Source: Saccharofermentans sp.
GTDB taxonomy: Bacteria > Bacillota > Clostridia > Saccharofermentanales > Saccharofermentanaceae
Assembly: GCA_024403855.1 (NCBI GenBank)
Contig: JAKSRC010000007.1
Coordinates: forward strand, 1 to 64,000
Direction of reading: 5' to 3'
DNA: 64,000 nucleotides
Shown here: positions 16,413 to 42,575 of the stretch, piece after piece
Layout of the letters: each line of letters starts with the position of its first letter
How positions within the stretch are numbered: the stretch's first letter is position 1
Made by a program: the position numbers and the translations under genes
Notes under the pieces: generated by a model
What the model saw: only the letters and a program-made list of their open reading frames with translations
The model's database searches: none
Told to the model about the DNA's origin: nothing

Positions 16413-17876
16413 TCAGCCTTTAAGAAGCGCTGCAATATCCATAACACTAAAGTGTCTGATCTTCTCATACTTCGAGAGACCTTCATTTACCTTATCAATC
16501 ACCACCTGCCAGTCGCCTTCCATATCAGCTTTGCTCTTCACGAAAATATCGCATGTGAGCATCTCATCTCTGATATAAGCTTTGACAGATACGATTCTTG
16601 GATCAGCTTCCTTGACCTTATCGCATATTCTTTTCGAAGATACATTCTCGCCGTTAATAAGAACCAGCATGGTGTCTTTTCGGCCTTTAACATAAACCAT
16701 AGTACCAACGATTTTGCCAAGGTCGCCTGTGAGGAAATAACCGTCCTTATCAAAGGCTTTTTCTGTCGCCTGGGGATCGTTTAAGTAGCCGGCGAAAACA
16801 TTAGGTCCCTTGATCGCAAGTTCGCCGATTCCATCCTCATCAGGATCGATAACTTTAGCATCCACATATTCCAGCAAAGTGCCGGCGCTGTCCATATCGG
16901 TGACATCAGGATAATCGATCGAAAAGCCTGACGAAGTCTCAGATAAAGCATATGCATTCTGAGGATTCATACCCTGGTCGATAAAGGCCTGACGGATGTC
17001 GTAAGGAAGGCATGAGCCTCCGATAAAGAGATATCTGATCTTACCTCCAAGGATCATCTTCAAAGGCACATTCATCGCTTTAGAGGCATCGACAAACTTG
17101 ACGCAGACAAGTGGTACAGCACAGAAAATCGTAGGCTTAACCATCATCATTTCCTGAGCCATATTCTTTATATCGCCATTCAGATAGATCTTGAATCCGA
17201 ATACCAATGAATAAAGGAAATTGAAGATAGAACCATAGGTGTGATTAAGCGGAAGGAACAGATAGCAGATATCATTTTCATCAACCTGTATCCTTCGTCC
17301 AAGCGCTTCATAGCTTGCGTAAATATTCTTGATAGAGAGCATTACAGCCTTAGGAAAAGATGTAGAACCGCTTGTAAATACAATTTTTGCCGGCTTATCT
17401 TCATCTACCGGATCAAGCGCGAAAAGCTCCTTACATGAAGCTTTTCCGCAATCAAGCATTCTCTCAAACTCATCTTCGATACATATGAATTCAACACCAG
17501 GATGCTTGGGTTTTACCGCATTGATCTTATCTTCCAAAAGTTTGCTATAAAGCATCAGATCAATCTCGCATTTGTTGATTGCATAATCGAGATTATCGTC
17601 TTTCCAGTCCTTGTTAAGTCCAATACTCAAGCCTACGTAGTTCATTATCGCTACATCAGCAATCATCCAGGCAAGTGAGTTAGGACTATAGATACCGATA
17701 TGCTTATCTTTGTAGCCGTTATCGATCAGATATGTTGCGAGATAGTTCACCTTTTCGATGAATTCGCCGAATGTAATACCGATATATTTACCATCGACCA
17801 TCTCGTGAAGATAATCGATATCTCTCCACTTTTCATAGTCTGCTCTTAAGAATTTTTCAAGTTCATTTATAGCCAT
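16413..17876 (-). CDS. Adenylate-forming acyl/aryl ligase lacking the A10 lysine region
   Basis: ANL-superfamily enzyme of 487 residues, activating a carboxylic acid with ATP. Motifs: A3 FTSGSTSFPKAVML (about 170-183), A5 YALSETSSG, A7 YFLTGDLG and A8 KGRKDTMLVLINGENVSS. The protein stops at LSKYEKIRHFSVMDIAALLKG, where fatty-acyl-CoA ligases normally continue for 20-30 residues to the A10 motif with the lysine needed for adenylation. No frameshifted remainder is obvious downstream. It overlaps the acetyltransferase gene by one base and is the last or second-last gene of the lipid operon, suggesting it activates an acyl group for that pathway or moves it to a carrier. Confidence 0.8.
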   Translation of the reverse strand: MAINELEKFLRADYEKWRDIDYLHEMVDGKYIGITFGEFIEKVNYLATYLIDNGYKDKHIGIYSPNSLAWMIADVAIMNYVGLSIGLNKDWKDDNLDYAINKCEIDLMLYSKLLEDKINAVKPKHPGVEFICIEDEFERMLDCGKASCKELFALDPVDEDKPAKIVFTSGSTSFPKAVMLSIKNIYASYEALGRRIQVDENDICYLFLPLNHTYGSIFNFLYSLVFGFKIYLNGDIKNMAQEMMMVKPTIFCAVPLVCVKFVDASKAMNVPLKMILGGKIRYLFIGGSCLPYDIRQAFIDQGMNPQNAYALSETSSGFSIDYPDVTDMDSAGTLLEYVDAKVIDPDEDGIGELAIKGPNVFAGYLNDPQATEKAFDKDGYFLTGDLGKIVGTMVYVKGRKDTMLVLINGENVSSKRICDKVKEADPRIVSVKAYIRDEMLTCDIFVKSKADMEGDWQVVIDKVNEGLSKYEKIRHFSVMDIAALLKG

Positions 17877-18943
17877 TAGTTAATACCTCTTTCAAGCAAA
17901 ACATATTCATATACATCCGTGATATCGCCTGTTGCATATGTCTGTGTGAGCTTACCGTCACGCATAAGCGCACCGATTGAAGGAAGACCGGATGCCATAA
18001 GTTCTTTCATAACGCTATAGACAATCGCCTTGCCAAGACCTCTGTGTTTCTGGTCAACGCCCATGTAAAGCATTACATAGCGCTTCGGTTTCTTCTTGAT
18101 ATTCAGGATCTTCATTATATTCAGCGGATTATTCGTGTGATAAACAAGGTTGCCGTAATCAGGAACAGATACATAGAAACCAACCTCTTCGCCTTTATAA
18201 CATGCTACCTTGGTCATGTTCATGTTCATTATCTGCTTGTAGTTTTTGAATACTTCACAGAAATCTTCGTGCTTAACATCCTTGAAGATCGGGAAGTCGC
18301 TATAAAGATCCGTAACAAGTCTGTAGACAACATCTATACAATAAGAGAACTCCTCTTCCTTAGGACTTCTTATCTCATAACCGCTGTCAAGAAATGCCTT
18401 GTAGTGCTCTTCGAATTTCGCATTGCTGTATTCTTCATCAATGCTTCGAAAAGCATGAGAAGTATAATGTTCGGCGACTTCAAATCCGTTGTCCTTAAAG
18501 AGCTTAAAGTAGTAGTCTTTGTTGTAAGGTTCTCCGGTATAAGGCGCTTCGAATTTGTTGATCTTAAGTCTGTATTTGATCCAGAAGGAAGCATCGACAG
18601 GACCTGTGATCTTCGCATAGCCTTTTTCCTTGCAAAAATCGTATGCACTGTCGAATAAGAACTTTGCTACAGCAGCATCATTTACGCACTCGAAAAAGCC
18701 CAGATAGGCTGTATCGTCACCTTCATAAGTCGTAATGCAAAAACGTCCTTCAACCTTATCCTGATCGCCTAACACCAGGAATTTATCAAGAGTAAAATAC
18801 TTGCTCAAAGGGTGCTCTTCTTTGAGGATCTTCTTCATGGTATCAGGATTTTCCATATTGTCATTGGCATCGTAAATCTTCGCTGCAAGCTTTACGAATT
18901 CCTTGATATATTTGTCTTCCTTATCGAACTTAATAAGCTTCAT
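17876..18943 (-). CDS. GNAT-family acetyltransferase, two-domain type
   Basis: Protein of 355 residues. The C-terminal third is a GNAT acetyl/acyl-transferase domain with the CoA-binding motif A VDQKHRGLGKAIVYSVMKEL (about 304-323). The N-terminal two-thirds resembles a second, degenerate GNAT-like unit (FCITTYEGDDTAYLGFFE). In this context it may transfer an acyl group onto a lipid head group or a biosynthetic intermediate. It overlaps both the dikinase-like gene upstream (4 bases) and the ligase downstream (1 base), which implies translational coupling. The acceptor is unknown. Confidence 0.75.
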   Translation of the reverse strand: MKLIKFDKEDKYIKEFVKLAAKIYDANDNMENPDTMKKILKEEHPLSKYFTLDKFLVLGDQDKVEGRFCITTYEGDDTAYLGFFECVNDAAVAKFLFDSAYDFCKEKGYAKITGPVDASFWIKYRLKINKFEAPYTGEPYNKDYYFKLFKDNGFEVAEHYTSHAFRSIDEEYSNAKFEEHYKAFLDSGYEIRSPKEEEFSYCIDVVYRLVTDLYSDFPIFKDVKHEDFCEVFKNYKQIMNMNMTKVACYKGEEVGFYVSVPDYGNLVYHTNNPLNIMKILNIKKKPKRYVMLYMGVDQKHRGLGKAIVYSVMKELMASGLPSIGALMRDGKLTQTYATGDITDVYEYVLLERGIN

Positions 18944-21213
18944 TTTGTTTCATTCCTTCTTACTATTTCTATCTTGCCGTTATCGCCGTTCATTCTTAAT
19001 ATGTCGCCCGTCTGTATCGTGTCCATCAGGTTCTTTACGCCCACTATCGATGGAATTCCTATCTCTCTTGAGATAATCGCTGTGTGCGATAGGAGTGAGC
19101 CCTTCTCGGATATTACACCTTTTGCCTGTGTCAGCAAGAAAACCCAGCCGGGATCAGTCATCTTGGTTATAAGGATCTTATCCTTAACATCACCTGTGTT
19201 GCTGACGTCAGTAATTACCAAAGCTTCACCTTCTGCTATTCCGCCCGAACAAGGCACACCAAACATCTCATCATCACTGAACTTCTTGCGATAAGAATTG
19301 ACGCTTACATGGCTTTTGTTAAATTCACCGTCAGCGAAAATAATCCTTGAATATGGCGGTAATTCTCTATAGAGCTTGTACTGTTCTTTGCGTTCAAGAA
19401 TAACAGCCATCATGTTTTGTGGTTTTTCTGCCAAGCCAAGAACCTCATCAATCGTAAGGTAATAGATGTCGTAAGATTCAGAGATCAATCCTTGTGCCTG
19501 ATATTTCTCACCAAGAGTATCTGCAAGAAGTCTTACCAGGCCATAGATACGGCTTCTGTTAAGACGGGAAATCTCACGATTATAGATGCCCAAAGAGCTC
19601 TTCTTAACGTAGTATCTGGTAAGAGCATCGTACTTATCTTCAGTAGTCTTTTCTTTGGCAAAGTTATTCCATGTCTCTTTAAGGCGTACGAGATCTTTAC
19701 GGTATTCTTCGATTCTTCTGTCGAGGAGTTCCGGATTGCTTCTGAATGTACGGCTTTCTATCTTCAGTTCCTCAAGATTGCGGTCACCGTATTTTCGGAT
19801 GTACTCTCTCTTTGCTTCAGAAAAATCTTCAGCTGAAAGTTCGTCTTTTCGAAGAGCGAGACTGATCATCTCTTTTACGGGCTTCATGCTTTCAATATCG
19901 GATATTCCACTGATATATTCGTTGATTTCCTTGTCGTCTTTTCCATACTTCTTCTTCATTCTCGACTTAAGAAGGCCGGTGAAGATAAATGAGTACAGAT
20001 CATTGAGGAGCGTGACGTCCCAGCAGTCGAAAAGCTGCAATTTAACATTGTTAAACAGCGCCACAAGTTCACTGGGCGCAAGGGTTTTATCGAATTTTGC
20101 GTTGAAATCATCGTAAATTCTTATGAACTTCTCATTGAGTTTACGCATGTTCTTCGGAACCGACAAAAGCTCATAAACGGAGTTGAAATATGTTGCTGTT
20201 CGCGCGAAAAAACCGATGTTTACATCGTCGTCGTTATAGCTCTTGTTCCGCACGCCCATCATCTCCTGCCAGACAGGAATTATCTTCTTGCTCATCGGCA
20301 GGAATTTGATAACCGTGTACCAGTTACTGATCTTATAGTAAACACGACCATTGACGTGACCTGTCATGTTAAGGAACACATCTTCGTGCTTGCTTAGTTC
20401 CTTATCGTTCTTGAGAACTCTGCTGCTTACACCTCTGAAAACTCCGCTATAAACGAGATCTACAAATGAAGTCGTCAGAGGGAGCGAGATGCCGGGATAA
20501 CTTTCAACGATGTTGCTGTTATCCATAATAAGCGGATTATCAGTTTTAAGAGTTGTTATAGGGCGTACCTGAAGGAAATAAATGACGTCATCTTTAATGG
20601 CGAATTCGATATCCAGATATTCACCGAAGACTTCCTTCATATTCTCTGACAAAGTGATCAGTTCTTCAATTTTAGAAGGCTCTAAAAGATTCTCTCTGCC
20701 TTCATAATAGAAGATCCTGTCAGTGAGATTATAAAAGTACGAAGTCGTATCAACTCTGGAAGATACAACGCCTTCACCAAGGCCTCTTCCGACTGTAATG
20801 ACGCTCTCGTTTAGAATTCCCTGTGGATTGGAAGTAAACAGGACACCTGAGATGTCAGAATCGATCATATCCTGAACGATCACATTAACTTTGATGTCGT
20901 TTATGTCGGTACCGCTTTTCGCGCAATAGGCCTTAACGTTGTCGCTATTACGCGAATCCGCAATATCTTTGACTCTTGAAGGAACATCTCTAGCTTCGAC
21001 ATTAAGGTACGTATCAAACTGGCCGGCAAAGCTTGTAGACTCTCCGTCTTCGACATTAGCCGAACTTCTTACGGAAAAGAGATTACCGTCAGAAGGAAGA
21101 ACAATATTCATGTCAGCCTTGATCGCATCTTCATAAGGGACAATTGTAAAAAGCGGAACATTAAATCCGTTATCTCTAAGCTTTATAAGATTGTCAATCT
21201 TAGTGCCGTACAT
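18940..21213 (-). CDS. Dikinase-like protein A (PEP synthase / rifampicin phosphotransferase architecture)
   Basis: Protein of 757 residues with three regions. Residues about 1-200 are an ATP-grasp PEP/pyruvate-binding domain (LFSVRSSANVEDGESTSFAGQFDTYLN, then GVLFTSNP and GRGLGEGVVS, ending in FAIKDDVIYFLQVRPITTL). Residues about 230-640 are helical and unlike PEP synthase. Residues about 650-757 are the swivelling phosphohistidine domain, with the catalytic His in GSLLSHTAIISREIGIPSIVG. The order and size match rifampicin phosphotransferase, which uses ATP to phosphorylate a bound substrate, releasing AMP and phosphate. The PEP-synthase C-terminal barrel is absent. It starts one base after the UbiA stop. 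The substrate is likely a lipid intermediate, by context only. Confidence 0.83.
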   Translation of the reverse strand: MYGTKIDNLIKLRDNGFNVPLFTIVPYEDAIKADMNIVLPSDGNLFSVRSSANVEDGESTSFAGQFDTYLNVEARDVPSRVKDIADSRNSDNVKAYCAKSGTDINDIKVNVIVQDMIDSDISGVLFTSNPQGILNESVITVGRGLGEGVVSSRVDTTSYFYNLTDRIFYYEGRENLLEPSKIEELITLSENMKEVFGEYLDIEFAIKDDVIYFLQVRPITTLKTDNPLIMDNSNIVESYPGISLPLTTSFVDLVYSGVFRGVSSRVLKNDKELSKHEDVFLNMTGHVNGRVYYKISNWYTVIKFLPMSKKIIPVWQEMMGVRNKSYNDDDVNIGFFARTATYFNSVYELLSVPKNMRKLNEKFIRIYDDFNAKFDKTLAPSELVALFNNVKLQLFDCWDVTLLNDLYSFIFTGLLKSRMKKKYGKDDKEINEYISGISDIESMKPVKEMISLALRKDELSAEDFSEAKREYIRKYGDRNLEELKIESRTFRSNPELLDRRIEEYRKDLVRLKETWNNFAKEKTTEDKYDALTRYYVKKSSLGIYNREISRLNRSRIYGLVRLLADTLGEKYQAQGLISESYDIYYLTIDEVLGLAEKPQNMMAVILERKEQYKLYRELPPYSRIIFADGEFNKSHVSVNSYRKKFSDDEMFGVPCSGGIAEGEALVITDVSNTGDVKDKILITKMTDPGWVFLLTQAKGVISEKGSLLSHTAIISREIGIPSIVGVKNLMDTIQTGDILRMNGDNGKIEIVRRNETK

Positions 21214-22122
21214 TTAGATTTTGCCAAAGATTATGAAGCAGACTATTGTAAGAAGCATCGTTGATTCCTGGAGATAGGTATAAAGCTCCACTTTCTTGAC
21301 GATGACGAACCTCTCAGGATTCTTAATGAACTGAACGAACTTCCATGTCATCCAGGATGCGAGAAGAGCAAGAACCGCTACAGAGATCTTGTTGAGATTC
21401 CATACGAGGATGAAGTTGGTGATGATATCAACAATAGTGAGAATCAATACGAAAATCGTCGAATCCCTGTATCCGAAAAGCTTCGAATATGTAGTGTAAT
21501 CCGTCTCGTCTTTTGGTGCTCTGATCTTTCTTGATACCTCCCAGATAAGTGCAGGGAAATACAATGTCCAAAGCGCCATGATGTTCGTCAAAGAGAACGC
21601 AGGAAGGCCATACTTTCGAATCGTGAAAGAGATAATGTAAAGGTTGATAAATGCCTGTACCGGATTGTGCGTAATAAGTGCGAGAGGAAGGCTTGGCTGA
21701 ATCTTCTTTTTCTTGAAGAACCACTTACTCATAAGGAAACCATAGGAATAAAGGATTCCGAGGAAAATCAGGTTTTCTCTCATGAAAGCGATATTAAGTC
21801 CAAGCACGATTGCCTGAGCTATTGCGCATGTGATAATTATGTCTTTCTTTAATACTCTGCCGCTCGGCAAGGGTCTGTCCGGAAAAAGCCTCTTATCCGT
21901 CTCAAAATCCTTTAAATCGTCAGCTACACGGAGCCATAAAAGGAATGCGAAAACAGTAAATGCACCCGTAAATTCGGCCATTCCAAGATGCACATCCTTC
22001 CATGTAACACCCATGTTCAGAAGGATGATGAAATAGATCTCAAGGAATACGATAAGACCAAGAACAAGTCCTTGCAGAATCGGGTAACGCTCCTTGTAAT
22101 ATATGTAAATTCGTTTAATCAT
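21214..22122 (-). CDS. UbiA-family membrane prenyltransferase
   Basis: Integral membrane protein of 302 residues with seven to nine helices. The first prenyl-diphosphate/Mg motif is ADDLKDFETD (about 67-76) followed by PDRPLPSG, matching the NDxxDxxxD...RPxxSG signature of UbiA enzymes. A second conserved block is EVSRKIRAPKDETDYTTYSKLFG (about 195-217), which I associate with an uncharacterised UbiA branch, not with quinone enzymes. UbiA proteins transfer prenyl groups to acceptors ranging from quinone rings to geranylgeranylglyceryl phosphate in archaeal lipids and phosphoribose diphosphate. Its overlap of four bases with psd and position among CDP-lipid enzymes favours a lipid acceptor. 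The exact reaction is inferred. Confidence 0.83.
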   Translation of the reverse strand: MIKRIYIYYKERYPILQGLVLGLIVFLEIYFIILLNMGVTWKDVHLGMAEFTGAFTVFAFLLWLRVADDLKDFETDKRLFPDRPLPSGRVLKKDIIITCAIAQAIVLGLNIAFMRENLIFLGILYSYGFLMSKWFFKKKKIQPSLPLALITHNPVQAFINLYIISFTIRKYGLPAFSLTNIMALWTLYFPALIWEVSRKIRAPKDETDYTTYSKLFGYRDSTIFVLILTIVDIITNFILVWNLNKISVAVLALLASWMTWKFVQFIKNPERFVIVKKVELYTYLQESTMLLTIVCFIIFGKI

Positions 22123-22973
22123 AAAACTGTGCCAATCCTCTCTCCGTATCTGACTTTAGTCTCGATTCCCATATCGCTCTGCTCCATAATGTCCTGATCA
22201 ATTTCCACATTATTGACGAGCATAACGACCGTCGATCCACCCGGCTCGAAATAGCCCTTTTCCTGGCCTTTATCAAACACGTCAGTTCCGTTATCAACGA
22301 TTCTTCCTATCAGCATCGCACCAACTTCGATATATGCGAGCGTTCCGAAATTTTCCGTTTTGAGCATGTTTACTTCGCGGTAATTTTCTTTGTAGATCTT
22401 GTATCTTTTCGAGATGGGACTTACCGTGTGAAGTCTGCCCTTTATAGTCTTTCTGCTGATGAGGCAGCCTCTGTCCGGATAACAGAATCTGTGGTAATCA
22501 TCGACACTTAATCTGAATACAAGTGCTTTGCCGCCCTTAAACTCCTGAGCAGCCTCTGCGTCTCCCAAAATCTCATCGAGCGTATATCCTCTGCCCTTAA
22601 CCATCATGCGCATTTCATCATCAATCTCATATACGAGAAGCTTGGAATCAGCAGGTGATATAAGCACATCTTTTGCCATGTTAACCGGGCGTTTTCCATA
22701 GCGTATCTTGCGCGTGAAGAAATCATTAAACGATGTATATTTTCGCTGCTCGAAATCATCCATTTTAATGTGATGCTCATTAACGAAAGCAGGGATTTTC
22801 TTGGCAGAGCGCTTGGTAGAATTTACCTTGCCGTAGATATTGGATACGAAATGCGACACAGCAAGTCTTAAGAAGATCCTTCCAAAGACATTGTTGTACA
22901 GAAATTCAAGCTTTGAAGCTCCGAATTGTTCAACTAATTCGTAATGTCTGGTTCTTCTGTCGTAAATCTTCAT
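22119..22973 (-). CDS. psd: Phosphatidylserine decarboxylase
   Basis: Pyruvoyl-dependent decarboxylase of 284 residues that converts phosphatidylserine (or archaetidylserine) to the ethanolamine lipid at the membrane. The self-cleavage site is GGSTVVM (about 247-253), where the Ser becomes the pyruvoyl group. The charge-relay region VDDYHRFCYPDRG contains the conserved DYHR. Length and the N-terminal segment fit the clostridial Psd group. It starts six bases after the pssA stop and overlaps the UbiA gene by four bases. The serine lipid comes from the adjacent CDP-alcohol transferase. Confidence 0.9.
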   Translation of the reverse strand: MKIYDRRTRHYELVEQFGASKLEFLYNNVFGRIFLRLAVSHFVSNIYGKVNSTKRSAKKIPAFVNEHHIKMDDFEQRKYTSFNDFFTRKIRYGKRPVNMAKDVLISPADSKLLVYEIDDEMRMMVKGRGYTLDEILGDAEAAQEFKGGKALVFRLSVDDYHRFCYPDRGCLISRKTIKGRLHTVSPISKRYKIYKENYREVNMLKTENFGTLAYIEVGAMLIGRIVDNGTDVFDKGQEKGYFEPGGSTVVMLVNNVEIDQDIMEQSDMGIETKVRYGERIGTVL

Positions 22974-22979
22974 AAGCTA

Positions 22980-23591
22980 TCAGATAAATACGAGATAAAC
23001 TACAAGCAACGCAATAGCTGCGACGCCGAATATTCCGTACCATATTCCCTTTGGCTTAATGACGTTGATCTTGAGCATCTCAAGGATAGATACGATAACG
23101 ATTCCTGCTGTAAAAACGGGAACAAAAATTACATCTTCAAGTACCAGCTTCAACAGATACAAGAGCGGGAAGATCATCGCAACATAAGTAACCGGAAGAC
23201 CGATATAGTACTTGATTGCCTTCTGGCTATCAGCAGTCACTACATTGAAATAAGCAAGTCTTGCAACACCTGCAAGTGCGAAAAACATATAAATGAAAAT
23301 ATCCCAAACATGAGTAAGACCCATGCTGATGAAGATGCAAATAGGCAGCGCAATAAAGCTTACAACATCGACCAATGAATCAAGTTCAATTCCAAACAGC
23401 TTTTCTTCTTCAGTACGCTTACATCTTCTTGCAATCATACCGTCGAAAAGATCACATACACCGGCCACCATAAGGCAGCATAAAGAATAGTTCAATTTAT
23501 CTGCAGCAAATGCAAGAAAGATACCAAGTATCGAGACAAACATTCCTACATAGGTTAAGATAACTGACTTGTTCCACTTGCCGATAATCAC
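22980..23591 (-). CDS. pssA: CDP-alcohol phosphatidyltransferase, PssA type
   Basis: Membrane enzyme of 203 residues with the full CDP-alcohol transferase signature DLFDGMIARRCKRTEEEKLF followed by GIELDSLVD (about 47-75), and five to six helices after it. The position next to psd identifies it as a serine transferase: CDP-lipid plus serine gives the phosphatidylserine-type lipid and CMP. It could equally accept a CDP-activated ether lipid, as archaeal orthologues do. It is separated by two bases from dikinase-like protein B and six bases from psd. Confidence 0.88.
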   Translation of the reverse strand: MIIGKWNKSVILTYVGMFVSILGIFLAFAADKLNYSLCCLMVAGVCDLFDGMIARRCKRTEEEKLFGIELDSLVDVVSFIALPICIFISMGLTHVWDIFIYMFFALAGVARLAYFNVVTADSQKAIKYYIGLPVTYVAMIFPLLYLLKLVLEDVIFVPVFTAGIVIVSILEMLKINVIKPKGIWYGIFGVAAIALLVVYLVFI

Positions 23592-23593
23592 AG

Positions 23594-26098
23594 TTATTCT
23601 CCTTCATTGATTGTTACAACGCCGGTGCTTCCGTCAATTGTAATTGTCTGACCGTCTTTAATCTTGCTCATGGCATCCTTGCAGCATACGATCGCAGGAA
23701 TACCATATTCACGAGATACGATTGCTGCATGGCAAAGGATTCCGCCATACTCTGTAACGATGCCGGAAAGAATTGCAAACTTAGGTGTCCATCCGGTATC
23801 AGTAAATCTTGTAACCAATATATCTCCCTGCTGGAGTCTGTCGATTGAATTGAAATCTTCAATGACTCTTGCAGTACCGGTGATCTTACCGTTATTTGCA
23901 CCAAGTCCCTTAATGGAAGATGCACTGTCAGGTGTATCAATAACTGTAAAGTCAGATCCTATCTCGTTGTCGCTTATATAATTTCTGTAAGCGTTATAGT
24001 AAATCTTGTTTTTCGCGATGATGTCGTTAATATCTTCTTTTGTCTTCTTTCCATCGATGTAATCCCAGACATTAGCGACCTTAAGGAACCATACATCTTC
24101 CCACTTCGCGAGAACGCCATCTTTTTCGAGTTTTTTAGCATACTCGATCGTGTACATACGGAGCATATAATAGAATCTCGTAGATACATCACGGAATTCT
24201 TCACGCCACCAGAGCATCTTACGCATATTGGTGACTTTCTCGCTTATCTTCTTATACTTCGAAGAAGACACCTTGCTCTTAAGATCTTCAAGAATCTTCT
24301 CGTAGACTGCGGTTCCTCTCTCCTTATCCTTTGCAGGAGAATAGTCATCGGTAAGAAGCGTCATATCCTTAACCATTGAGATCATGACCTCAGGTTCTTC
24401 GTAGTAGCAGGGATATGTAATATCAAGCTCCTTATCGGAGTGATAGCCGTATTCTTCGATAAGCTTTTTAACAAGCGGAATGTTATATCGACCGTCATCT
24501 ATGTTTTTCGCGATGTCTATAGCTGACGTATCTTTCCAGTACTTTGCATCTTCTTCACTTGCTCTGATCTTTCTTGTTATATCCCACATCTCATAGAACG
24601 GAAGAAGGTGTGAAATGTTATCGATGCTTCCAAGAAGTGACAAATATTCACTCTCAGATACATACTTCAGAAGGCTGTCCTTATACAAAGACTGGTGAAT
24701 CGTGTTAATAAAGATCTGCCAGAAATATGTCGTCTCAGATCTTAAGTAAGTCTCTTTGGTAATCTTGTAATAAGCCTTCGTGATATCTTCAATCGTGCCT
24801 TCATCAAGCTGCTTTTTATAATCGAAATAGATATCCAAAAGTTCCTGCTTATATCGCTCGTTATTCTTCTTACGATCGTTAACTAAGGCCGTCTGCTTAA
24901 GTGCAATCGGAATCAGATGCAAAAGCGCACCGGGTGTAGTTCCGGTAACCTTGCCGTCGCCTTCGTAGTTGCCAACGATACCGTATTCACTATCGAATTC
25001 TCTTTCCTTATAACCGACGATCTGTGCCATGCCGTTCTTTACTACCGAAAGATTCCAATAGCATCTGCCGTAATACATCTGGCCGAGCTTTGCAGGCATC
25101 TGGCTGTCTCGTAAGATCATTGAATCAACGATGAACTTTCTTAATGAATATTCCCAGATGTATTCATAAAGGCTCCACATATAAGGAGTGCAAACTGTCG
25201 CTGATACACCGCCGTCTTTAAAGTCCGCGGTAGACCACATATCTGTAATTCCTGAATAATTGAGCTTGGTAATCCTTCTTGACTGGAGTATAAAAAGTTC
25301 ATCATCCTTTATCGCAAACTCAATATCACAGGGATATCCGAACTTCTGCTGAATGCTTGCGAAAACCTTCGCATATTCTTTAACCTTCTCCTCGCTGATA
25401 AGCTTGTTGGAAGGAGTTCTGTCGGTCTCCTTATCTTCATACCAGTCGTAGTGGTACTGCTCCGGAACGGTCTTACCGCTGACAATATCTTCGCCAAGGC
25501 CCTCCGACACTTCGATAAGCATCGTCTTGTCATTACCTGTTACAGGATCGATCGTAAAGCATATACCACTCTTATCAGAAGCTACCATCTCCTGAACAAC
25601 AACTGACATCTTAAGATCACTCAGATCGATCTTGCGGTTAACAAGATAGCTGAGAATAATCTCTGAGAACATCGACTTATAGCAATCGATAACTCGATCT
25701 TCTACATCTTCCGGCTTCGTATTAAGGAATGTCTGATACTGTCCTGCAAAAGAGAACTCGTCTAAGTCTTCTTTGGTACCGCTGCTTCTGACTGCGTAGA
25801 GTTTGTCTTCTTTTACGATAGACTTAATCTCTTCAATCGTATCTTTGGGAAGACTTGCATTGTCCAAGCAGGCGCAAAGCTTATTTGAGGTCTCTCTTAT
25901 ATTTTCGGAGTTAAGGTTTTCGAGCGAATTGGAAATCTCTGCTTCCAGTTCACCTTTGACAGTCTCATCGTACGTATCGCTATCAAGCACAAAACCACTT
26001 GGAACATTAAGTCCTTCCTGCTTCATTAACAATAGGAATTTACCCTTGTTGCCGAGTTTGCCGTTCTCCTGATTCTTACTGTCTAACCTTACTAACAT
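23594..26098 (-). CDS. Dikinase-like protein B (PEP synthase / rifampicin phosphotransferase architecture)
   Basis: Protein of 834 residues, paralogous in layout to the 18940-21213 product. The N-terminal ATP-grasp domain has LYAVRSSGTKEDLDEFSFAGQYQTFLN (about 98-124), SGICFTIDPVTGN, EGLGEDIVSG and FAIKDDELFILQSRRITKL. A helical central region of about 400 residues follows, then a phosphohistidine domain with the His in GGILCHAAIVSREYGIPAIV (about 785-804). All catalytic elements for ATP-to-His phosphotransfer are present, so both copies should be active, but their central substrate regions differ. It lies 12 bases after the CarS-like gene. Two dikinases in one lipid operon suggest two phosphorylated intermediates or one substrate pair. 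Confidence 0.83.
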   Translation of the reverse strand: MLVRLDSKNQENGKLGNKGKFLLLMKQEGLNVPSGFVLDSDTYDETVKGELEAEISNSLENLNSENIRETSNKLCACLDNASLPKDTIEEIKSIVKEDKLYAVRSSGTKEDLDEFSFAGQYQTFLNTKPEDVEDRVIDCYKSMFSEIILSYLVNRKIDLSDLKMSVVVQEMVASDKSGICFTIDPVTGNDKTMLIEVSEGLGEDIVSGKTVPEQYHYDWYEDKETDRTPSNKLISEEKVKEYAKVFASIQQKFGYPCDIEFAIKDDELFILQSRRITKLNYSGITDMWSTADFKDGGVSATVCTPYMWSLYEYIWEYSLRKFIVDSMILRDSQMPAKLGQMYYGRCYWNLSVVKNGMAQIVGYKEREFDSEYGIVGNYEGDGKVTGTTPGALLHLIPIALKQTALVNDRKKNNERYKQELLDIYFDYKKQLDEGTIEDITKAYYKITKETYLRSETTYFWQIFINTIHQSLYKDSLLKYVSESEYLSLLGSIDNISHLLPFYEMWDITRKIRASEEDAKYWKDTSAIDIAKNIDDGRYNIPLVKKLIEEYGYHSDKELDITYPCYYEEPEVMISMVKDMTLLTDDYSPAKDKERGTAVYEKILEDLKSKVSSSKYKKISEKVTNMRKMLWWREEFRDVSTRFYYMLRMYTIEYAKKLEKDGVLAKWEDVWFLKVANVWDYIDGKKTKEDINDIIAKNKIYYNAYRNYISDNEIGSDFTVIDTPDSASSIKGLGANNGKITGTARVIEDFNSIDRLQQGDILVTRFTDTGWTPKFAILSGIVTEYGGILCHAAIVSREYGIPAIVCCKDAMSKIKDGQTITIDGSTGVVTINEGE

Positions 26099-26110
26099 GT
26101 GATTAATTCC

Positions 26111-26701
26111 TTAAAACATATTTTTACGAAGCTTTGCAAAATAAAGCAGCATATTGAACACGATATGAGTTACCGCACCGATAACTACAAACAAAAGATA
26201 CTTGAGTATTCCAAGTGGATAGAAGAGCCATACAACGAGGGCACAGCCAAATACTGAATCTGCCTGATCGAGGAAAACGAAAAAGCCTTTCATGAAGCCT
26301 TTTAATGTCTTTCCGGGCGTAATATCAAGTCTTCTCTTGAGGAAACTGTTCGGCAGCTCGAAAAGAGCATATCCAAGGCCCAGCAGCAGTCCGATGAGAA
26401 GATTAAAAGTCAAAGTATTCTCGTGATTCTGGTAGAAATAATTGAGCGAACCCATCGACGGATTTTTGCAGAGAAGTCCCCACAAAACTGCAATAAGCAT
26501 ATTGAAAATGATATAGCCCAAAAGACCCTTCCAGGTCTTGTTATCGCCGAAGATTCTCTTACCGTCAACAAAATTCTTGCCGAAATCCATAGGCTTAGAT
26601 AAAGCCTTCAAAATAGGTAGTTTGCACCACACCATCACTATGACGCCCGACAAGATGGCCGGTGCCGTAGTGACATACATCATTAAAATTGTTTTCAACA
26701 T
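26111..26701 (-). CDS. CarS-like CDP-archaeol synthase family membrane protein
   Basis: Integral membrane protein of 196 residues of the CDP-archaeol synthase (CarS, former DUF46) family, identified by RIFGDNKTWKGLLGYIIFN (about 49-67), KTLKGFMKGFFVFLDQADSV and five predicted helices. CarS transfers CMP from CTP to a phosphatidic-acid-like ether lipid. Bacterial CdsA is larger and has a different signature. As the first gene of the operon it would supply the CDP-activated lipid used by the PssA-like enzyme. An AGAGG ribosome site lies five bases before the ATG. Whether the substrate is a diacyl or prenyl glycerol phosphate cannot be told from this protein alone. Confidence 0.8.
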   Translation of the reverse strand: MLKTILMMYVTTAPAILSGVIVMVWCKLPILKALSKPMDFGKNFVDGKRIFGDNKTWKGLLGYIIFNMLIAVLWGLLCKNPSMGSLNYFYQNHENTLTFNLLIGLLLGLGYALFELPNSFLKRRLDITPGKTLKGFMKGFFVFLDQADSVFGCALVVWLFYPLGILKYLLFVVIGAVTHIVFNMLLYFAKLRKNMF

Positions 26702-26702
26702 A

Positions 26703-26756
26703 ATCGCCTCTTTGAATATCGTACCACAACTATATATAACTTTAAATAAAGGCGAT
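26703..26756 (-). promoter_or_regulatory. Leader region of the lipid operon with SD-complementary repeat
   Basis: ATCGCCT at 26703-26709 and AGGCGAT at 26750-26756 are inverted repeats. In the mRNA the start-proximal copy contains part of the ribosome site of the CarS-like gene. A possible -10 (TATATA/TATAGT) lies between them, so whether the distal copy is in the transcript is uncertain. No strong -35 is seen. Confidence 0.25.
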
Positions 26757-26849
26757 GTGTTGAATCATGTGGATAGAAAAGTATTTCTTTATGTTTTTGT
26801 TATATTTTGGAGCAAAATTCAGATGTTCGAAAACACTATCTGCAACAAA

Positions 26850-27914
26850 TCAATTAGTGATTATTCCGCCGCCTATTACTCTGCCCTCTTCGTCGTAGAA
26901 TACGGCTGACTGTCCGGGAGAGACTCCCTTGACTGCTTCATCAAGAGTAACCATGACTTTTCCATCGCCCGTGCATTCGATCGTCGCAGGGCGCTCAGTC
27001 TGGTGATATCTGGCCTTTGCAAGACAGCGTATTGTATCGCCGCAGGAAAGATTCGGAACACTCAAATAATTAACATCACGGCAATTAAACTTATCGACCA
27101 TCAAAGAAGCTTCTGTACCAAGAACTACAGTGTTGTTCTCTGCATCGATCTTAGTTACAAAAGCAGGATAACCAAGTGCAATACCTAAGCCTTTGCGCTG
27201 GCCGACAGTATACTGATGGATACCTTTATGCTTACCAAGGACATTGCCGTCTACATCTACAAAGTTACCTTCTGCAGGTAATGTTTTGTCAGTGTGATCT
27301 TTAATAAAATCAGTATATCTGCCTTCAGTTACAAAGCAGATCTCCTGTGATTCTTCCTTGTGTGCACACGGAAGACCGGCCTTCTCGGCAATGGCTCTTA
27401 CTTCGTCCTTTGTGTATTGACCAAGTGGCATCAGAGTTCTTGAAAGCTGCTCCTGTGTAAGCTTATAGAGCATATATGTCTGATCCTTGGCAATATTTGA
27501 AGCTTTGCGGACGGTATATCTGCCGTTAGGGAGCTTTTCGACATAGGCGTAGTGACCTGTCGCAATATAGTCAGCATCTAAAATATCAGCAAGCTCGATC
27601 ATTTTCGCCCACTTGACGTATCGATTACACTCGATGCATGGATTGGGTGTAAGACCATCGAGATATGCATCAACAAAAGGATCAATAACGCGGTCTTTAA
27701 ACAGTGATGTGCAGTTATGCGGATGGTATTTGATATCGAGAAGATTGCATACATTTCTTGCTTCATCGATCTCACAACATCTGCTGTCGCCTTCCTCATC
27801 TGAACCCCAGACACGGAGAGTAACACCTCTGACTTCATAGCCCTGTTGCTTCAGCAAATATGCTGCAACAGCACTATCAACTCCGCCTGACATTCCTACA
27901 ATTACTTTAGCCAC
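26850..27914 (-). CDS. mnmA: tRNA-specific 2-thiouridylase MnmA
   Basis: Thiolates uridine 34 of Glu, Gln and Lys tRNAs using a persulfide sulfur and ATP. The PP-loop GMSGGVDSAVAAYLL is close to the N-terminus, the first catalytic Cys is in TPNPCIECNRYVKW and the second in ESQEICFV; the C-terminal beta domain ends in AVFYDEEGRVIGGG. A GTG at 27926 is in frame, but AAGGTGAG precedes the GTG at 27914 by seven bases, giving the usual MAKVIVGMSGG start. It lies between the sugar/G1P cluster and the lipid operon on the same strand, 69 bases after GH29. Confidence 0.95.
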   Translation of the reverse strand: MAKVIVGMSGGVDSAVAAYLLKQQGYEVRGVTLRVWGSDEEGDSRCCEIDEARNVCNLLDIKYHPHNCTSLFKDRVIDPFVDAYLDGLTPNPCIECNRYVKWAKMIELADILDADYIATGHYAYVEKLPNGRYTVRKASNIAKDQTYMLYKLTQEQLSRTLMPLGQYTKDEVRAIAEKAGLPCAHKEESQEICFVTEGRYTDFIKDHTDKTLPAEGNFVDVDGNVLGKHKGIHQYTVGQRKGLGIALGYPAFVTKIDAENNTVVLGTEASLMVDKFNCRDVNYLSVPNLSCGDTIRCLAKARYHQTERPATIECTGDGKVMVTLDEAVKGVSPGQSAVFYDEEGRVIGGGIITN

Positions 27915-27983
27915 GTTAATACTCACCTTGAATTATTTTCGCCTGATATAGTCGCACATTTGGACTGATTGAGCAATCAGATA

Positions 27984-29468
27984 TCAGCAGATTTCGATCT
28001 TGAAACAGACCGGTTTATTGTCTGAAGGCACCCTATCGATAACGATCTTAAGACCGTCACCGCTTCTTGAAGTGCTCAAGACTTTATAGTCACCCAACAC
28101 CTCAACATTGCCAGTCACCAGATCGTAGTTTCCTTTGATCCTAAGAGACTTGATCAGGAATTCTGCCTTAGAAGGATTCATGCAAAAGGCGTAAAGATAT
28201 CCATTCTTGTATGTGAATCTGAAATCTTCCGAAGTAAATAACTTCTCGTCGTTATCCATGAATGAACCATCGACATTATTGACTTCACCCTCGCCGAAAA
28301 CCTTCCACGGTATAGTTCCGTAGATGCCTTCGCCGTTAACGCCAAGCCATGAACCGATTTCTTTCAACACCATCGTCTCTTCATCAGTTATTGTTCCGTC
28401 AGGCTTGGGGCCGACATTTAAAAGCAGCATTCCGTTTTTACTGACGATATCTATGAGGTCACAGATAATCTGCCTAGAAGGCTTAAATTCATTGTCCCTG
28501 ATATATCCCCAAGAGAGTTTTCCGATAGCCGTATCAGTCTGCCACGGCAAAGGAGATATTCCGGTCAAAGCACCTCTTTCGACATCGAAAGTCGCTACAG
28601 AATCAGGGAAAGACTGGTGCTTATAATTTATCGTTACTTCCTTACCCCACTCTTCGGCACGGTTATAGTAGTAGGCGCAGAATTTCTTGAGATATGGCTT
28701 AAAAGCAGCGTTATGGATCCATGAATCGAAATAGACAATAGAAGGCTCAAGTTTATCGACGAGTTCACATGTTCTTACGAGCCAGTCCGTGAGCCACTCT
28801 TCTGTCGGTGGCACAGAGAAAGTGTCTGCAATAGTATCGAAAACCTTAGTATCGGCAAGCTCCGGACAAAGATAAGAAGGTCCGTAAAAATCTCTGTATT
28901 CTTCGTCATTTACGTCACTTTCAATCGAGCGTCCCATGTTCATGTAGAAGAAGTGTTCAGCACGGTGTGACGAAGCACAAAAAGCAAGTCCTCTCTCCTC
29001 GCATGCACGCTTTATCTCGGATGCGACATCTACCATAGGTCCCATTTTCGCTGCATTCCAACGATTGAAATCAGTGTCATACATGGCAAAGCCATCGTGA
29101 TGCTCTGCGACAGGCATTATGAATTTTGCACCCGAATTTGCGAAAAGCTCTACCCATTCATCAGCATTGAACTTCTCGCCCCTGAACATAGGAATAAAAT
29201 CCTTGTATCCGAACTTCGAAGGATCGCCAAAGTTTTTGATGTGATACTCATATTCACGTGATCCGGGATTATACATCCATCTCGGATACCATTCACACGC
29301 ATACTGTGGAACGCTATAGATTCCCCAGTGAATAAAGATGCCGAATTTACCCTCGTAATACCAGTCTGGAAGCTTGTGTCCGGACAATGAATCCCATGAG
29401 GCCTTATATCGACCTTCTTCTATTGTTCTGTCTATTATTCTCAGATATTCTTCGTGGTTCATAATCAC
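27984..29468 (-). CDS. Alpha-L-fucosidase, GH29
   Basis: Glycoside hydrolase family 29 enzyme of about 492 residues with no signal peptide, so cytoplasmic. Family features are WYYEGKFGIFIHWGIYSVP near residue 36, AEHHDGFAMYDTDFNRWNA, and the nucleophile Asp in PSIVYFDSWIHN; a beta-sandwich C-terminal domain follows the barrel. It should release L-fucose from imported oligosaccharides. The GTG at 29468 overlaps the G1PDH stop (GTGA); an ATG two codons later at 29462 is the alternative start. Translational coupling to G1PDH is evident. Confidence 0.9.
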   Translation of the reverse strand: MIMNHEEYLRIIDRTIEEGRYKASWDSLSGHKLPDWYYEGKFGIFIHWGIYSVPQYACEWYPRWMYNPGSREYEYHIKNFGDPSKFGYKDFIPMFRGEKFNADEWVELFANSGAKFIMPVAEHHDGFAMYDTDFNRWNAAKMGPMVDVASEIKRACEERGLAFCASSHRAEHFFYMNMGRSIESDVNDEEYRDFYGPSYLCPELADTKVFDTIADTFSVPPTEEWLTDWLVRTCELVDKLEPSIVYFDSWIHNAAFKPYLKKFCAYYYNRAEEWGKEVTINYKHQSFPDSVATFDVERGALTGISPLPWQTDTAIGKLSWGYIRDNEFKPSRQIICDLIDIVSKNGMLLLNVGPKPDGTITDEETMVLKEIGSWLGVNGEGIYGTIPWKVFGEGEVNNVDGSFMDNDEKLFTSEDFRFTYKNGYLYAFCMNPSKAEFLIKSLRIKGNYDLVTGNVEVLGDYKVLSTSRSGDGLKIVIDRVPSDNKPVCFKIEIC

Positions 29469-30520
29469 TTGAAAATCGCCTTAAGTTTCTCATCTGTGGT
29501 AAGGAGTTCTTTTGCAAGAGTCCTGTACTTTTCTTCGTGGAGATAAGTGTGACGGAAAGGCTTCATTGAAGGCGCAAGATCGATCGCCTTGCTGTAGTCT
29601 TCAACTTTCAGATCAAGCGTTGCACAGTAATCCCAGAAGCCTGTCTGAGTAAAGAGTGTATCGACTCTCTTCCATCTGTGATCAGTAACCTTACACATAA
29701 TGTAAGTCGCAATACCTACCTGTATTCCGTGAAGCTGAGGACGCTCAAGGAATGAATCCAGAGCATGGGAGATCAGGTGCTCACTTCCGCTTGTAGGAGC
29801 TGAAGATCCGGCAATCTCATTTGCGACACCACTCATAGCAAGTGAGTCCAAAAGTTCTTTTAAAAAGAGCTCATCCTGAATTGTCTCAAATGGTGTTCTG
29901 ACAAACGAATTGACGGCTTTTTTCGCAACCATAAATGAAAAGTCATTTACTTCATCAAAGCCCTGATCCTCTTCATGCTGCCAGTCGTATGTAGATGAGA
30001 TTTTCGATACCATGTCACCGATTCCGGAATAAAGGAATCTTACGGGTGCGCTCTTAATAACATCTGTATCTACAAGAATTCCGTAAGCCATTTTCGCAGG
30101 CAGAGACTTTCTGTGGCCATTGACGATGAGGGATGCTGATGAGCTCGAAAAGCCATCTGATGAAGAACTCGTAGGAACGCTGATGAAAGGAATCCTTAAG
30201 ATGTAACCAATGTATTTTGCAGCATCGATTACCTTGCCACCGCCCATTCCGATAACAGCCTGAGTCTTATTAGGAAGTTCGAACGCAAGGTTTGTAATGT
30301 CGTTAAAATCGACAGTGTCCATCTCCTGACAGTGAAGAACATTAACGCCTGCCTTCTCGAAAGAAGCGAAGACGACAGGACCGAACATATCAGTCAAACC
30401 GTTTCCAAGAAGAAGTGTTACCTGTGTAAGTCCCGCCTCTTTAAGGAACTCACCGATATTTGCTGTAACACCTTTTTCGATTTTAAGGATTACCGGAATT
30501 GATATCTCATCTTTGGGCAT
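29465..30520 (-). CDS. sn-Glycerol-1-phosphate dehydrogenase (AraM/EgsA family)
   Basis: Iron/zinc-alcohol-dehydrogenase-fold enzyme of 351 residues that reduces dihydroxyacetone phosphate to sn-glycerol-1-phosphate, the backbone enantiomer of archaeal lipids. Evidence: GMGGGKVIDAAKYIGY (cofactor loop, about 91-106), the diagnostic SVPTSSSSDGFSSSSASL (about 114-131), SGSEHLISHALDSFLERPQLHGIQVGIATYIM with the two metal-binding His. Glycerol dehydrogenase lacks the PTSxSxDG block in this form. In Bacillus the homologue AraM lies in an arabinose operon, and here GH51 is also near. The other context is the lipid operon 2.8 kb downstream. It starts 21 bases after the HAD gene. Confidence 0.88.
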   Translation of the reverse strand: MPKDEISIPVILKIEKGVTANIGEFLKEAGLTQVTLLLGNGLTDMFGPVVFASFEKAGVNVLHCQEMDTVDFNDITNLAFELPNKTQAVIGMGGGKVIDAAKYIGYILRIPFISVPTSSSSDGFSSSSASLIVNGHRKSLPAKMAYGILVDTDVIKSAPVRFLYSGIGDMVSKISSTYDWQHEEDQGFDEVNDFSFMVAKKAVNSFVRTPFETIQDELFLKELLDSLAMSGVANEIAGSSAPTSGSEHLISHALDSFLERPQLHGIQVGIATYIMCKVTDHRWKRVDTLFTQTGFWDYCATLDLKVEDYSKAIDLAPSMKPFRHTYLHEEKYRTLAKELLTTDEKLKAIFK

Positions 30521-30541
30521 AAATACTACCTCACTTTCAAG

Positions 30542-31204
30542 TTAACCAATAACTTCAGGAACAACTTTTATGAGCTCATCAAAGCTATTGATAAATGGCA
30601 CTTCGGTATTGATAGTTCCGAAGCCGTATTTGGCATGAATAAAAGGAAAACCGGCCTTAACAGTCGAATCGTAATCGCCCTGAATATCACCTACATAGCA
30701 GGCAGAAGCAAGGCCGTTGCGCTCAGCGATAAGCCTGATATTGGCATCTTTGGGAAGGAAATTATTGCCATAGCATTCAATATCTTCGACCAGGTCTTCC
30801 GGTTTGCCGTAATCAATCTTGTAGTAGTCCAGGAATGCCTCAATGTATCCAGCCTGGCAGTTGCTTACTATATAGACGTGATAGCCCATCTCCTTAAGCT
30901 TTGCCCATGTCTCGCATACACCATCGTAAAGAATGCCGCCGTTAAGTCTTAAATACTCATTCTCGTAATTCTCACAGGCAACTCTTAAAGCATTTCTCTC
31001 TTCGCCTTCTTTGGCATACGGGAAAAGATTATCAGCTATGACATCCATAGTCTTTCCCATATTTCTCTGGATATCGTCACGGGTTATGATCTTATCCGTA
31101 AATCCTGCCTCCTGAACCTTAACAGTCCAAGATTTGGCAACATTCTCGGCCGAATCCCAAACTGTGCCGTCCATATCGAAAATAACACCTTTTTTGGATT
31201 GCAT
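30542..31204 (-). CDS. HAD-family phosphatase
   Basis: Haloacid-dehalogenase-fold hydrolase of 220 residues, phosphoglycolate-phosphatase-like. Motif I is VIFDMDGTVWDS (about 8-19), motif II YIVSNCQ, and motif III ACYVGDIQGDYDSTVKAG, with a helical cap between I and II. It should remove phosphate from a small phosphorylated metabolite. In the Bacillus ara operon a HAD phosphatase (AraL) precedes AraM, and the same order occurs here, although this one belongs to a different HAD cap class. The gene lies 22 bases after the Cys-rich small gene. Confidence 0.86.
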   Translation of the reverse strand: MQSKKGVIFDMDGTVWDSAENVAKSWTVKVQEAGFTDKIITRDDIQRNMGKTMDVIADNLFPYAKEGEERNALRVACENYENEYLRLNGGILYDGVCETWAKLKEMGYHVYIVSNCQAGYIEAFLDYYKIDYGKPEDLVEDIECYGNNFLPKDANIRLIAERNGLASACYVGDIQGDYDSTVKAGFPFIHAKYGFGTINTEVPFINSFDELIKVVPEVIG

Positions 31205-36815: not shown

Positions 36816-38129
36816 TTACTGCTTTGAAGTCTTCGGTTCTTTCTTAAACAGTTTCTGGAAAGCTTCAATGAAGTTTTTCGGATTAAGACTGCTTACCATA
36901 ATGGCATTGTTAGGCCTAATAGGTTTAATGATGTATCCTACAACAACGTTCGTAAAGAACTGTGAAACAAGCGACGCAACGGCTGCACCGTAAGAACCGA
37001 ACTTCGGAATAAGAAGTACATTAAGAACGATGTTTGCTGAAGCACCCAAAAGGTTAATAAGCCACAGATACTTTTGCTTTTCATTTGCAAGTATCCATAT
37101 ATTGCGAACTGATCCGAGATAAGAGAATGTTGTATACCATACAACGATCCTTAATACACCGATAGTTCCGGCATACTTCTCTCCGTATGTGAGCATAATG
37201 ATCGGATTAGCAAAAATGGTCATGAATAAACCCTGTAACAAAGACAGATAAATAACGAACGAATAAAGCATTTTAAGGCGCTTTTTAAATAATTCATCGC
37301 TGATCTTCTGTCCCTCGAAAATCCAGGGCCTGAACGAATCGATAATAGCTGCAAAGATAAACGCCGTCATACCGGCAACTGTGGCTGCAACACCATAAAG
37401 ACCGGTCTCAGCGCTGTCATACATACCCTTGAGCATGATCTTATCGGTCTGGGTGAAAATAGTTACCATCATGGAGGAGACGACATAGTGTTTGCCCCTG
37501 TTGAACATTTCCTTAGCAAGGCTTAAGGACACAGAAAGCTTCTGGGTCTTCTTCTTGCCGTAGATAACGAAAATACCAAGTGAGATCAACATATAGTCCA
37601 AAGCACTTGTTACCGCAAACCAATAAACACCCTTTGATGTCGCAAGAAGGAAGATTCTATATCCTGCAACAACGAAGTGCACAATGAGGCTTATGATCGA
37701 ATAATACTTCGACATAAGCTTAGCCTGATACCAGCATCCCATAAGGTCAGTTGCATGGAAGATCAGGGTAATGCTATACAGAGCGCAAACGAGGACTGTT
37801 TCCTTCTCACCCGGATTTGCTACATATGCAAATGCTACAAGTCCAACAATGCAGGCAAGCGAAGACAGGAAATTGACAAAGACACCCGTTCCCATCGCCT
37901 TGCCTTCTCTTTCCGGATGCTGGACGATCTCCTGAACCATAATGTTGCTGAATCCAAGACGCATCAATGGAACGCAGAATGTGACGAGTGCAGCTGCATA
38001 AGTAATAGAACCGAAAGTCGATGTTCCAAGGAATCTCGCTGTGAGAATATTAAGAATAAATCCAACGATTGATTGGATCAGTTTACATGCTATTATCCAT
38101 GTTGCATTTTTTGCAACTTTGTTTGACAT
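36816..38129 (-). CDS. Wzx-type oligosaccharide flippase
   Basis: Polysaccharide-biosynthesis (MATE/MOP superfamily) membrane protein of 437 residues with about 12-14 helices, starting NATWIIACKLIQSIVGFILNILTARFLGTSTFGSI, a typical Wzx N-terminus. It should flip undecaprenyl-linked repeat units across the membrane. As the last gene of the glycan cluster it is downstream of the transferases by 57 bases. No polymerase of the Wzy type is found in the window. Confidence 0.88.
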   Translation of the reverse strand: MSNKVAKNATWIIACKLIQSIVGFILNILTARFLGTSTFGSITYAAALVTFCVPLMRLGFSNIMVQEIVQHPEREGKAMGTGVFVNFLSSLACIVGLVAFAYVANPGEKETVLVCALYSITLIFHATDLMGCWYQAKLMSKYYSIISLIVHFVVAGYRIFLLATSKGVYWFAVTSALDYMLISLGIFVIYGKKKTQKLSVSLSLAKEMFNRGKHYVVSSMMVTIFTQTDKIMLKGMYDSAETGLYGVAATVAGMTAFIFAAIIDSFRPWIFEGQKISDELFKKRLKMLYSFVIYLSLLQGLFMTIFANPIIMLTYGEKYAGTIGVLRIVVWYTTFSYLGSVRNIWILANEKQKYLWLINLLGASANIVLNVLLIPKFGSYGAAVASLVSQFFTNVVVGYIIKPIRPNNAIMVSSLNPKNFIEAFQKLFKKEPKTSKQ

Positions 38130-38186
38130 ATTTATTTGCCTCTACTCTTGTTCAAAGTTTCGTTGATTTTAGCATATAAGCAAAAA

Positions 38187-39374: not shown

Positions 39375-39375
39375 A

Positions 39376-41435: not shown

Positions 41436-41438
41436 AAA

Positions 41439-42557: not shown

Positions 42558-42575
42558 ATTTATCTAAGCTTCCCG

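Follow-up and report, generated by a model that had tools for sequence, protein, structure and literature searches.

Eight tightly packed genes in a 64,000-nucleotide stretch of a rumen Saccharofermentans-like Clostridium genome (contig JAKSRC010000007.1, positions 1 to 64,000; hereafter the window) probably form an undescribed aminophospholipid operon, dedicated to a second, non-standard ethanolamine membrane lipid. Some of its enzyme types also occur in archaeal lipid synthesis. It is nevertheless a different pathway from that of archaea: the first, key archaeal enzyme, geranylgeranylglyceryl phosphate synthase (GGGPS), is missing, and the glycerol-1-phosphate dehydrogenase (G1PDH) of the window belongs to a different unit. 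A rough probability of 0.45 was assigned to the reading that the eight genes act as one unit making an extra ethanolamine phospholipid beside the ordinary CdsA/PgsA lipids. The literature within reach of the searches contained no paper describing this operon.

The eight open reading frames (ORFs) span positions 16413-26701, all on the minus strand. The initial annotation had described eight tightly packed genes here; all were recovered at the coordinates first read, and the same gene set was found in 55 loci. In operon order the genes are:

26111-26701, minus strand: CarS-family CDP-lipid synthase, operon gene 1 (Pfam CarS-like)
23594-26098, minus strand: dikinase 1 (PPDK1), phosphoenolpyruvate (PEP)-synthase/rifampin-phosphotransferase-like (Pfam PPDK_N and PEP-utilizers)
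22980-23591, minus strand: Pss, CDP-alcohol phosphotransferase of the serine-transferase type (Pfam CDP-OH_P_transf, NCBIfam)
22119-22973, minus strand: Psd, serine-phospholipid decarboxylase (Pfam PS_Dcarbxylase, GGST self-cleavage motif)
21214-22122, minus strand: UbiA-superfamily membrane transferase, PRK13592-like (NCBIfam, AlphaFold model)
18940-21213, minus strand: dikinase 2 (PPDK2), PEP-synthase-like (Pfam PPDK_N and PEP-utilizers, NCBIfam)
17876-18943, minus strand: tandem GNAT acyltransferase-like protein (AlphaFold and Foldseek; without a Pfam family)
16413-17876, minus strand: AMP-forming acyl ligase, the last operon gene (Pfam AMP-binding)

Because neighbouring ORFs overlap by 4 or 1 bp, abut, or are separated by at most 12 bp, the eight genes are likely to form one transcript with coupled translation. 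A promoter and terminator scan returned 26 promoters against 35.8 expected in shuffled sequence and gave no evidence of operon boundaries.

Conservation was counted over 55 distinct complete loci with enough flanking sequence, drawn from several Clostridial families. The CarS, UbiA, dikinase 2 and GNAT genes were each present in all 55 loci, followed by Psd (53/55), dikinase 1 (49/55), Pss (47/55), and the AMP ligase (43/55). In all loci, the core gene that follows UbiA is PPDK2. The conservation survey proposed in the initial annotation returned the full window gene order in 32 of the 55 loci; with the gene set recurring in so many distinct loci, its packing is far beyond chance.

Within the genus, 40 of 85 genomes have UbiA orthologues, while matches across the class were confined to nine of 391 sampled genomes, three of them distant (29-33%). 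Judged by UbiA, the closest named relatives of the host genome belong to rumen Saccharofermentans and related Clostridia. Among named genomes, one scan yielded 73 loci, with carriers that included Saccharofermentans, Lachnospiraceae (among them P6A3 and AC2028), Butyrivibrio XPD2006 and INlla14, Ruminococcaceae YRB3002, Family XIII, and others. Ruminant or other herbivore-gut names predominate among these loci, and sampling may favour such genomes. Cultured strains are among the carriers, so the nature of the lipid is directly testable by lipidomics. The distribution of the operon is patchy, and the UbiA tree departs from taxonomy (the genus and family of the window are scattered, and several of its branches are long or have low support), a pattern consistent with spread by transfer.

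Two operon-bearing contigs carry unexpected labels, Fibrobacter succinogenes (L076) and Saccharibacteria (L112), and both may be wrong bins; L076 groups with Saccharofermentans-type UbiA sequences. A single ORF of 1012 amino acids (L068, 9441-12479) was considered as a natural UbiA-PPDK2 fusion and rejected. Each partner is cut short where the two meet; the ORF is therefore probably a deletion or assembly product and was set aside.

The headgroup enzymes all exceeded their Pfam cut-offs of 22 bits. CarS scored 74.5 bits (CarS-like), fell below the NCBIfam PRK04032 equivalog cut-off, and gave a profile that matched the solved ApCarS structure (5guf, E=6e-9); its motifs ELPNSFxKRR and DQxDSxxG were present in 70/70 orthologues. 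Pss scored 48.9 bits (CDP-OH_P_transf), and its best NCBIfam models, archaetidylserine synthase (78 bits) and pssA (69 bits), were both below cut-off; the motif DGxxAR...G...D...D was retained in 64/67 sequences. Psd scored 175 bits (PS_Dcarbxylase), with the GGST self-cleavage motif in 79/79. The headgroup half of the predicted pathway rests on these well-known families, and the lipid-core half is inferred.

The host genome (2.08 Mb, 98.9% complete) encodes one CdsA outside the operon, and a PgsA-type enzyme is its sole CDP-alcohol transferase besides the operon Pss. With CdsA and PgsA present elsewhere, the operon adds a second CDP-lipid route, and no other route to serine or ethanolamine lipids was seen. 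A search for polyprenyl synthases, another suggestion of the initial annotation, found one short-chain prenyl diphosphate synthase, nearest to farnesyl diphosphate (FPP) synthase models; no UbiA besides that of the operon was found in the genome.

One rather unlikely account is that CarS, Pss and Psd make ordinary diacyl-phosphatidylethanolamine from phosphatidic acid, while UbiA, the dikinases, GNAT and the ligase modify the lipid or its headgroup. Bacterial CarS-family enzymes are not tied to archaeol, and the genome has no serine-type CDP-alcohol transferase other than the operon Pss, both of which suit this account; a dedicated CarS, however, would be redundant for diacyl-phosphatidic acid where CdsA is already present. 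Two reduced operons (L121, L126) also speak against it: they keep CarS-UbiA-dikinase 2-GNAT and have lost Pss and Psd, so that CarS goes with UbiA rather than with Pss/Psd.

Apart from three of the 85 genus genomes, all three of which carry the operon, PlsY (PF02660) was undetectable throughout the genus, the host genome included, with or without the operon. A role for the operon as substitute for missing PlsY was rejected, the lack of PlsY in the genus being independent of operon presence.

The best NCBIfam match of the operon UbiA was PRK13592, an uncharacterised "prenyltransferase" model (382 bits, cut-off 443), and its scores were far below the cut-offs of the models for digeranylgeranylglyceryl phosphate synthase (DGGGPS). 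Among 16 UbiA members the matches comprised PRK13592 (16), PRK12884 (15), EboC (15), ChlG (13), and the DGGGPS model PRK12883 (12); no quinone UbiA, MenA or CtaB model was among the NCBIfam matches listed for these members. The AlphaFold model (pLDDT 83) had archaeal DGGGP synthases as its best solved matches (7bpu and 6m31; TM 0.66/0.70 against 6m31), followed by ApUbiA, UBIAD1 and AfUbiA and then, lower, a membrane phosphoribosyltransferase, in a comparison that ranks folds, assigns no function, and was made without a quinone UbiA control. A quinone enzyme was rejected as an identity, as no quinone model was among the matches listed and this is the only UbiA in the genome. The first Asp motif (D68-x3-D72-x3-D76) was invariant across orthologues and more distant cousins, and across the same set the second motif read E195-x2-R198-K199 in place of an Asp-rich sequence.

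Both dikinases carry ATP-binding and swivelling phosphohistidine domains (PPDK_N and PEP-utilizers, above Pfam cut-offs), and neither reached the cut-off of any NCBIfam PEP-synthase model shown, PPDK2 scoring 794 bits against PRK06241.2-3 (cut-off 850). The catalytic His motif was intact in PPDK1 (GGxLCHAAIVSRE, 71/71) and in PPDK2 (SHTAI, 83/83). Relatives of the dikinases by NCBIfam include PigC/RedH and Rph. Some PEP-synthase-like enzymes phosphorylate alcohols, for example rifampin phosphotransferase. The GNAT-position protein had no Pfam match, and a sequence search of solved structures gave nothing meaningful for it; its AlphaFold model (pLDDT 87) matched tandem GNATs by Foldseek (E=4e-13). 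The AMP ligase scored 188 bits against Pfam AMP-binding (cut-off 29.9).

Overall, the family assignments of the initial annotation held up well. Its CarS, PssA-like and Psd calls agree with Pfam; its UbiA-family protein has a DGGGPS-like fold by AlphaFold and lies slightly below the Pfam cut-off; and the two dikinases, the adenylate-forming ligase and the "acetyltransferase", modelled here as a tandem GNAT, are truly operon genes. The modified or hybrid lipid that it proposed remains plausible.

In the proposed pathway, the AMP ligase and tandem GNAT would activate and attach an acyl chain, and UbiA would transfer a prenyl-type, possibly isoprenoid, chain onto a glycerol-phosphate-type backbone. 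The chain could come from the cell's own FPP- or geranylgeranyl diphosphate-like diphosphates or from a salvaged prenol, and the ATP dikinases may phosphorylate a lipid or prenol alcohol. CarS would convert the resulting lipid phosphate to a CDP-lipid, Pss would exchange CMP for serine, and Psd would decarboxylate the presumed serine lipid to the ethanolamine form.

Cousin operons were found in three class-level relatives, other Clostridia (L055-L057), and on an alphaproteobacterial plasmid, of Roseinatronobacter (NZ_CP121116.1; L149 523-8507). These contain UbiA, a dikinase, DUF3419, a kinase-like membrane protein, GNAT, and an AMP ligase, with no CarS, Pss or Psd. The cousin UbiA proteins are 20-25% identical to the operon UbiA, and the protein at the GNAT position in Roseinatronobacter is a homologue of the window GNAT (E=6e-6). 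The membrane protein (439-448 amino acids, no Pfam family) has dolichol/phytol-kinase-like motifs as read from sequence. DUF3419 is the family of BtaA, a betaine-lipid enzyme that adds a homoserine headgroup to diacylglycerol. UbiA, dikinase, GNAT and ligase are shared between the cousin and window operons while the headgroup genes differ, which suggests that these four constitute a lipid-core module with exchangeable headgroup genes, the shared kernel building the hydrophobic core.

On plasmid pSCL4 of Streptomyces clavuligerus (NZ_CP016560.1; L150 5442-10819), genes for an AfsA-like hotdog protein, an isoprenylcysteine methyltransferase-like protein, a dikinase, and an unannotated UbiA-like protein stand in a row.

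It is unlikely that the operon makes a natural product, or an amphiphile that is secreted or used in signalling, instead of a bulk membrane lipid. The patchy, mobile-looking distribution, the UbiA-dikinase pair beside an AfsA-like gene on pSCL4, and the PigC/RedH and Rph relatives of the dikinases would fit such a product, whereas Pss, Psd and DUF3419 belong to membrane-lipid headgroup enzyme families. Furthermore, no exporter recurs in most loci: no other neighbour gene was shared to an extent comparable with the operon genes, the next being an ABC-transporter-type cluster near 21 of 92 loci.

The extra ethanolamine phospholipid is supported by the conserved order, the intact motifs, CdsA and PgsA elsewhere in the genome, the prenyl diphosphate synthase, the UbiA model nearest to DGGGPS, and the cousin operons. 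Several observations weigh against it. UbiA scored 30.6 bits in Pfam against a cut-off of 34.2, and its profile finds no solved structure by sequence. DGGGP synthases have two Asp-rich motifs (PMC9385802). Because the protein is below the Pfam cut-off and its second motif reads E-x-x-R-K, prenyl transfer by UbiA is no more than putative. Some of the 55 loci lack the AMP ligase, dikinase 1 or Pss. GGGPS/PcrB (PF01884) was detected in five positive-control genomes but in none of the 188 from the order. In the genus, geranylgeranyl reductase (TIGR02032) had no match listed at E<=1e-20, and no genome of the 188 gave one above cut-off; at most 11 candidates were scored per genome, making absence likely, not certain.

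The G1PDH, which the initial annotation had counted as a pathway enzyme, lies 2.8 kb upstream of the operon with two genes intervening:

26850-27926: mnmA, between operon and G1PDH
27984-29468: alpha-L-fucosidase, between operon and G1PDH
29465-30520, minus strand: glycerol-1-phosphate dehydrogenase-like protein (AraM/EgsA type), outside the operon (Pfam Fe-ADH_2; NCBIfam PRK00843 below cut-off, 210 bits against 413)
30542-31204, minus strand: HAD phosphatase, partner of G1PDH, outside the operon (Pfam HAD_2)

The G1PDH and alpha-L-fucosidase ORFs share 4 bp, with mnmA standing between these two and the operon. The HAD-G1PDH pair was present in 12/12 loci inspected, operon-less genomes included, and G1PDH adjoins the operon in one of the 55 loci. 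G1PDH occurred in 47 of the 85 genus genomes, 26 of them with the operon (Fisher p=0.13, not significant), and was common in a sister genus without UbiA matches; 14 of the 40 operon-bearing genus genomes, some of them incomplete, had no G1PDH match. Its location and strand were as described, and its membership in the pathway was rejected on linkage (1/55), co-occurrence (p=0.13), and HAD pairing. From these comparisons the HAD-linked unit was judged to be independent of the operon. PlsY and PlsC have been shown to use either enantiomer of glycerol phosphate (PMC13400652, 2026), and a bacterial G1PDH therefore need not mean archaeal lipids, although PlsY is undetectable in the host genome.

The initial annotation had read the locus as a possible archaeal-like glycerol-1-phosphate lipid pathway. 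Taken as a route to a diether lipid, in which the nearby G1PDH would supply the backbone, UbiA would act as DGGGP synthase, and CarS, serine transfer and decarboxylation would follow, this reading is very improbable. CarS, Pss, Psd and the DGGGPS-like fold of UbiA are what such a pathway would contain; G1PDH lies in the window, and in a few close relatives it is no more than approximately 15 kb away from the operon. Against this stand the lack of GGGPS/PcrB in 188/188 genomes, the absence of any geranylgeranyl reductase match in the genus, the operon-bearing genomes without G1PDH, the independence of the HAD-linked unit, and the presence of CdsA, for which the initial annotation had advised a search, and of PgsA. 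GGGPS had already been missing from its view, and its occurrence elsewhere in the host genome was rejected, a profile search giving only a sub-cut-off fragment of 18.4 bits. This absence had been named as refuting the archaeal-like pathway together with a placement of UbiA in quinone or phosphoribosyl branches; by profile and by fold ranking UbiA is not among quinone UbiAs.

Two further regions of the window were noted: a surface-polysaccharide cluster at 36816-43775 (glycosyltransferases, polysaccharide-biosynthesis-type proteins, an epimerase) and a B12-dependent methionine-synthase-like protein at 58939-61359 (homocysteine S-methyltransferase, pterin-binding, and B12 domains). At 27984-31204 the HAD-G1PDH pair and fucosidase lie near an arabinofuranosidase-like gene.

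Altogether, the operon is conserved, seemingly undescribed, and carried mostly by herbivore-gut Clostridia, cultured strains included; its pairing of UbiA with ATP dikinases is seen again in Alphaproteobacteria and Streptomyces. Should UbiA attach an isoprenoid chain by an ether bond, the operon would be a GGGPS-independent bacterial route to archaeal-like or hybrid lipids, for which the chances appear slim. Such a route would bear on the lipid divide and on archaeol, which is used as a methanogen marker in ruminants (PMC7397718).

Compared with known systems, the operon resembles the archaeal phospholipid pathway (G1PDH, GGGPS, DGGGPS, CarS, and archaetidylserine synthase and decarboxylase) in its CarS, in a Pss and Psd of those synthase and decarboxylase types, and in a UbiA with a predicted fold nearest to DGGGPS. 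It differs in having no GGGPS, no geranylgeranyl reductase found, an unlinked G1PDH, and four extra genes (two dikinases, GNAT, and the AMP ligase). Candidatus Cloacimonetes, of the FCB bacteria, likewise combines archaeal-type lipid enzymes with an ordinary bacterial pathway, but the complements are nearly opposite: GGGPS and DGGGPS without CarS there (PMC7852524), CarS without GGGPS in the operon host. The Bacillus AraM/PcrB route to heptaprenylglyceryl phosphate is matched by the AraM-type G1PDH of the host, near arabinofuranosidase-like and fucosidase genes, although the host has no PcrB and its G1PDH lies outside the operon. The DUF3419 cousin operon differs in its headgroup genes and shares with the window operon the kernel of UbiA, dikinase, GNAT, and AMP ligase.

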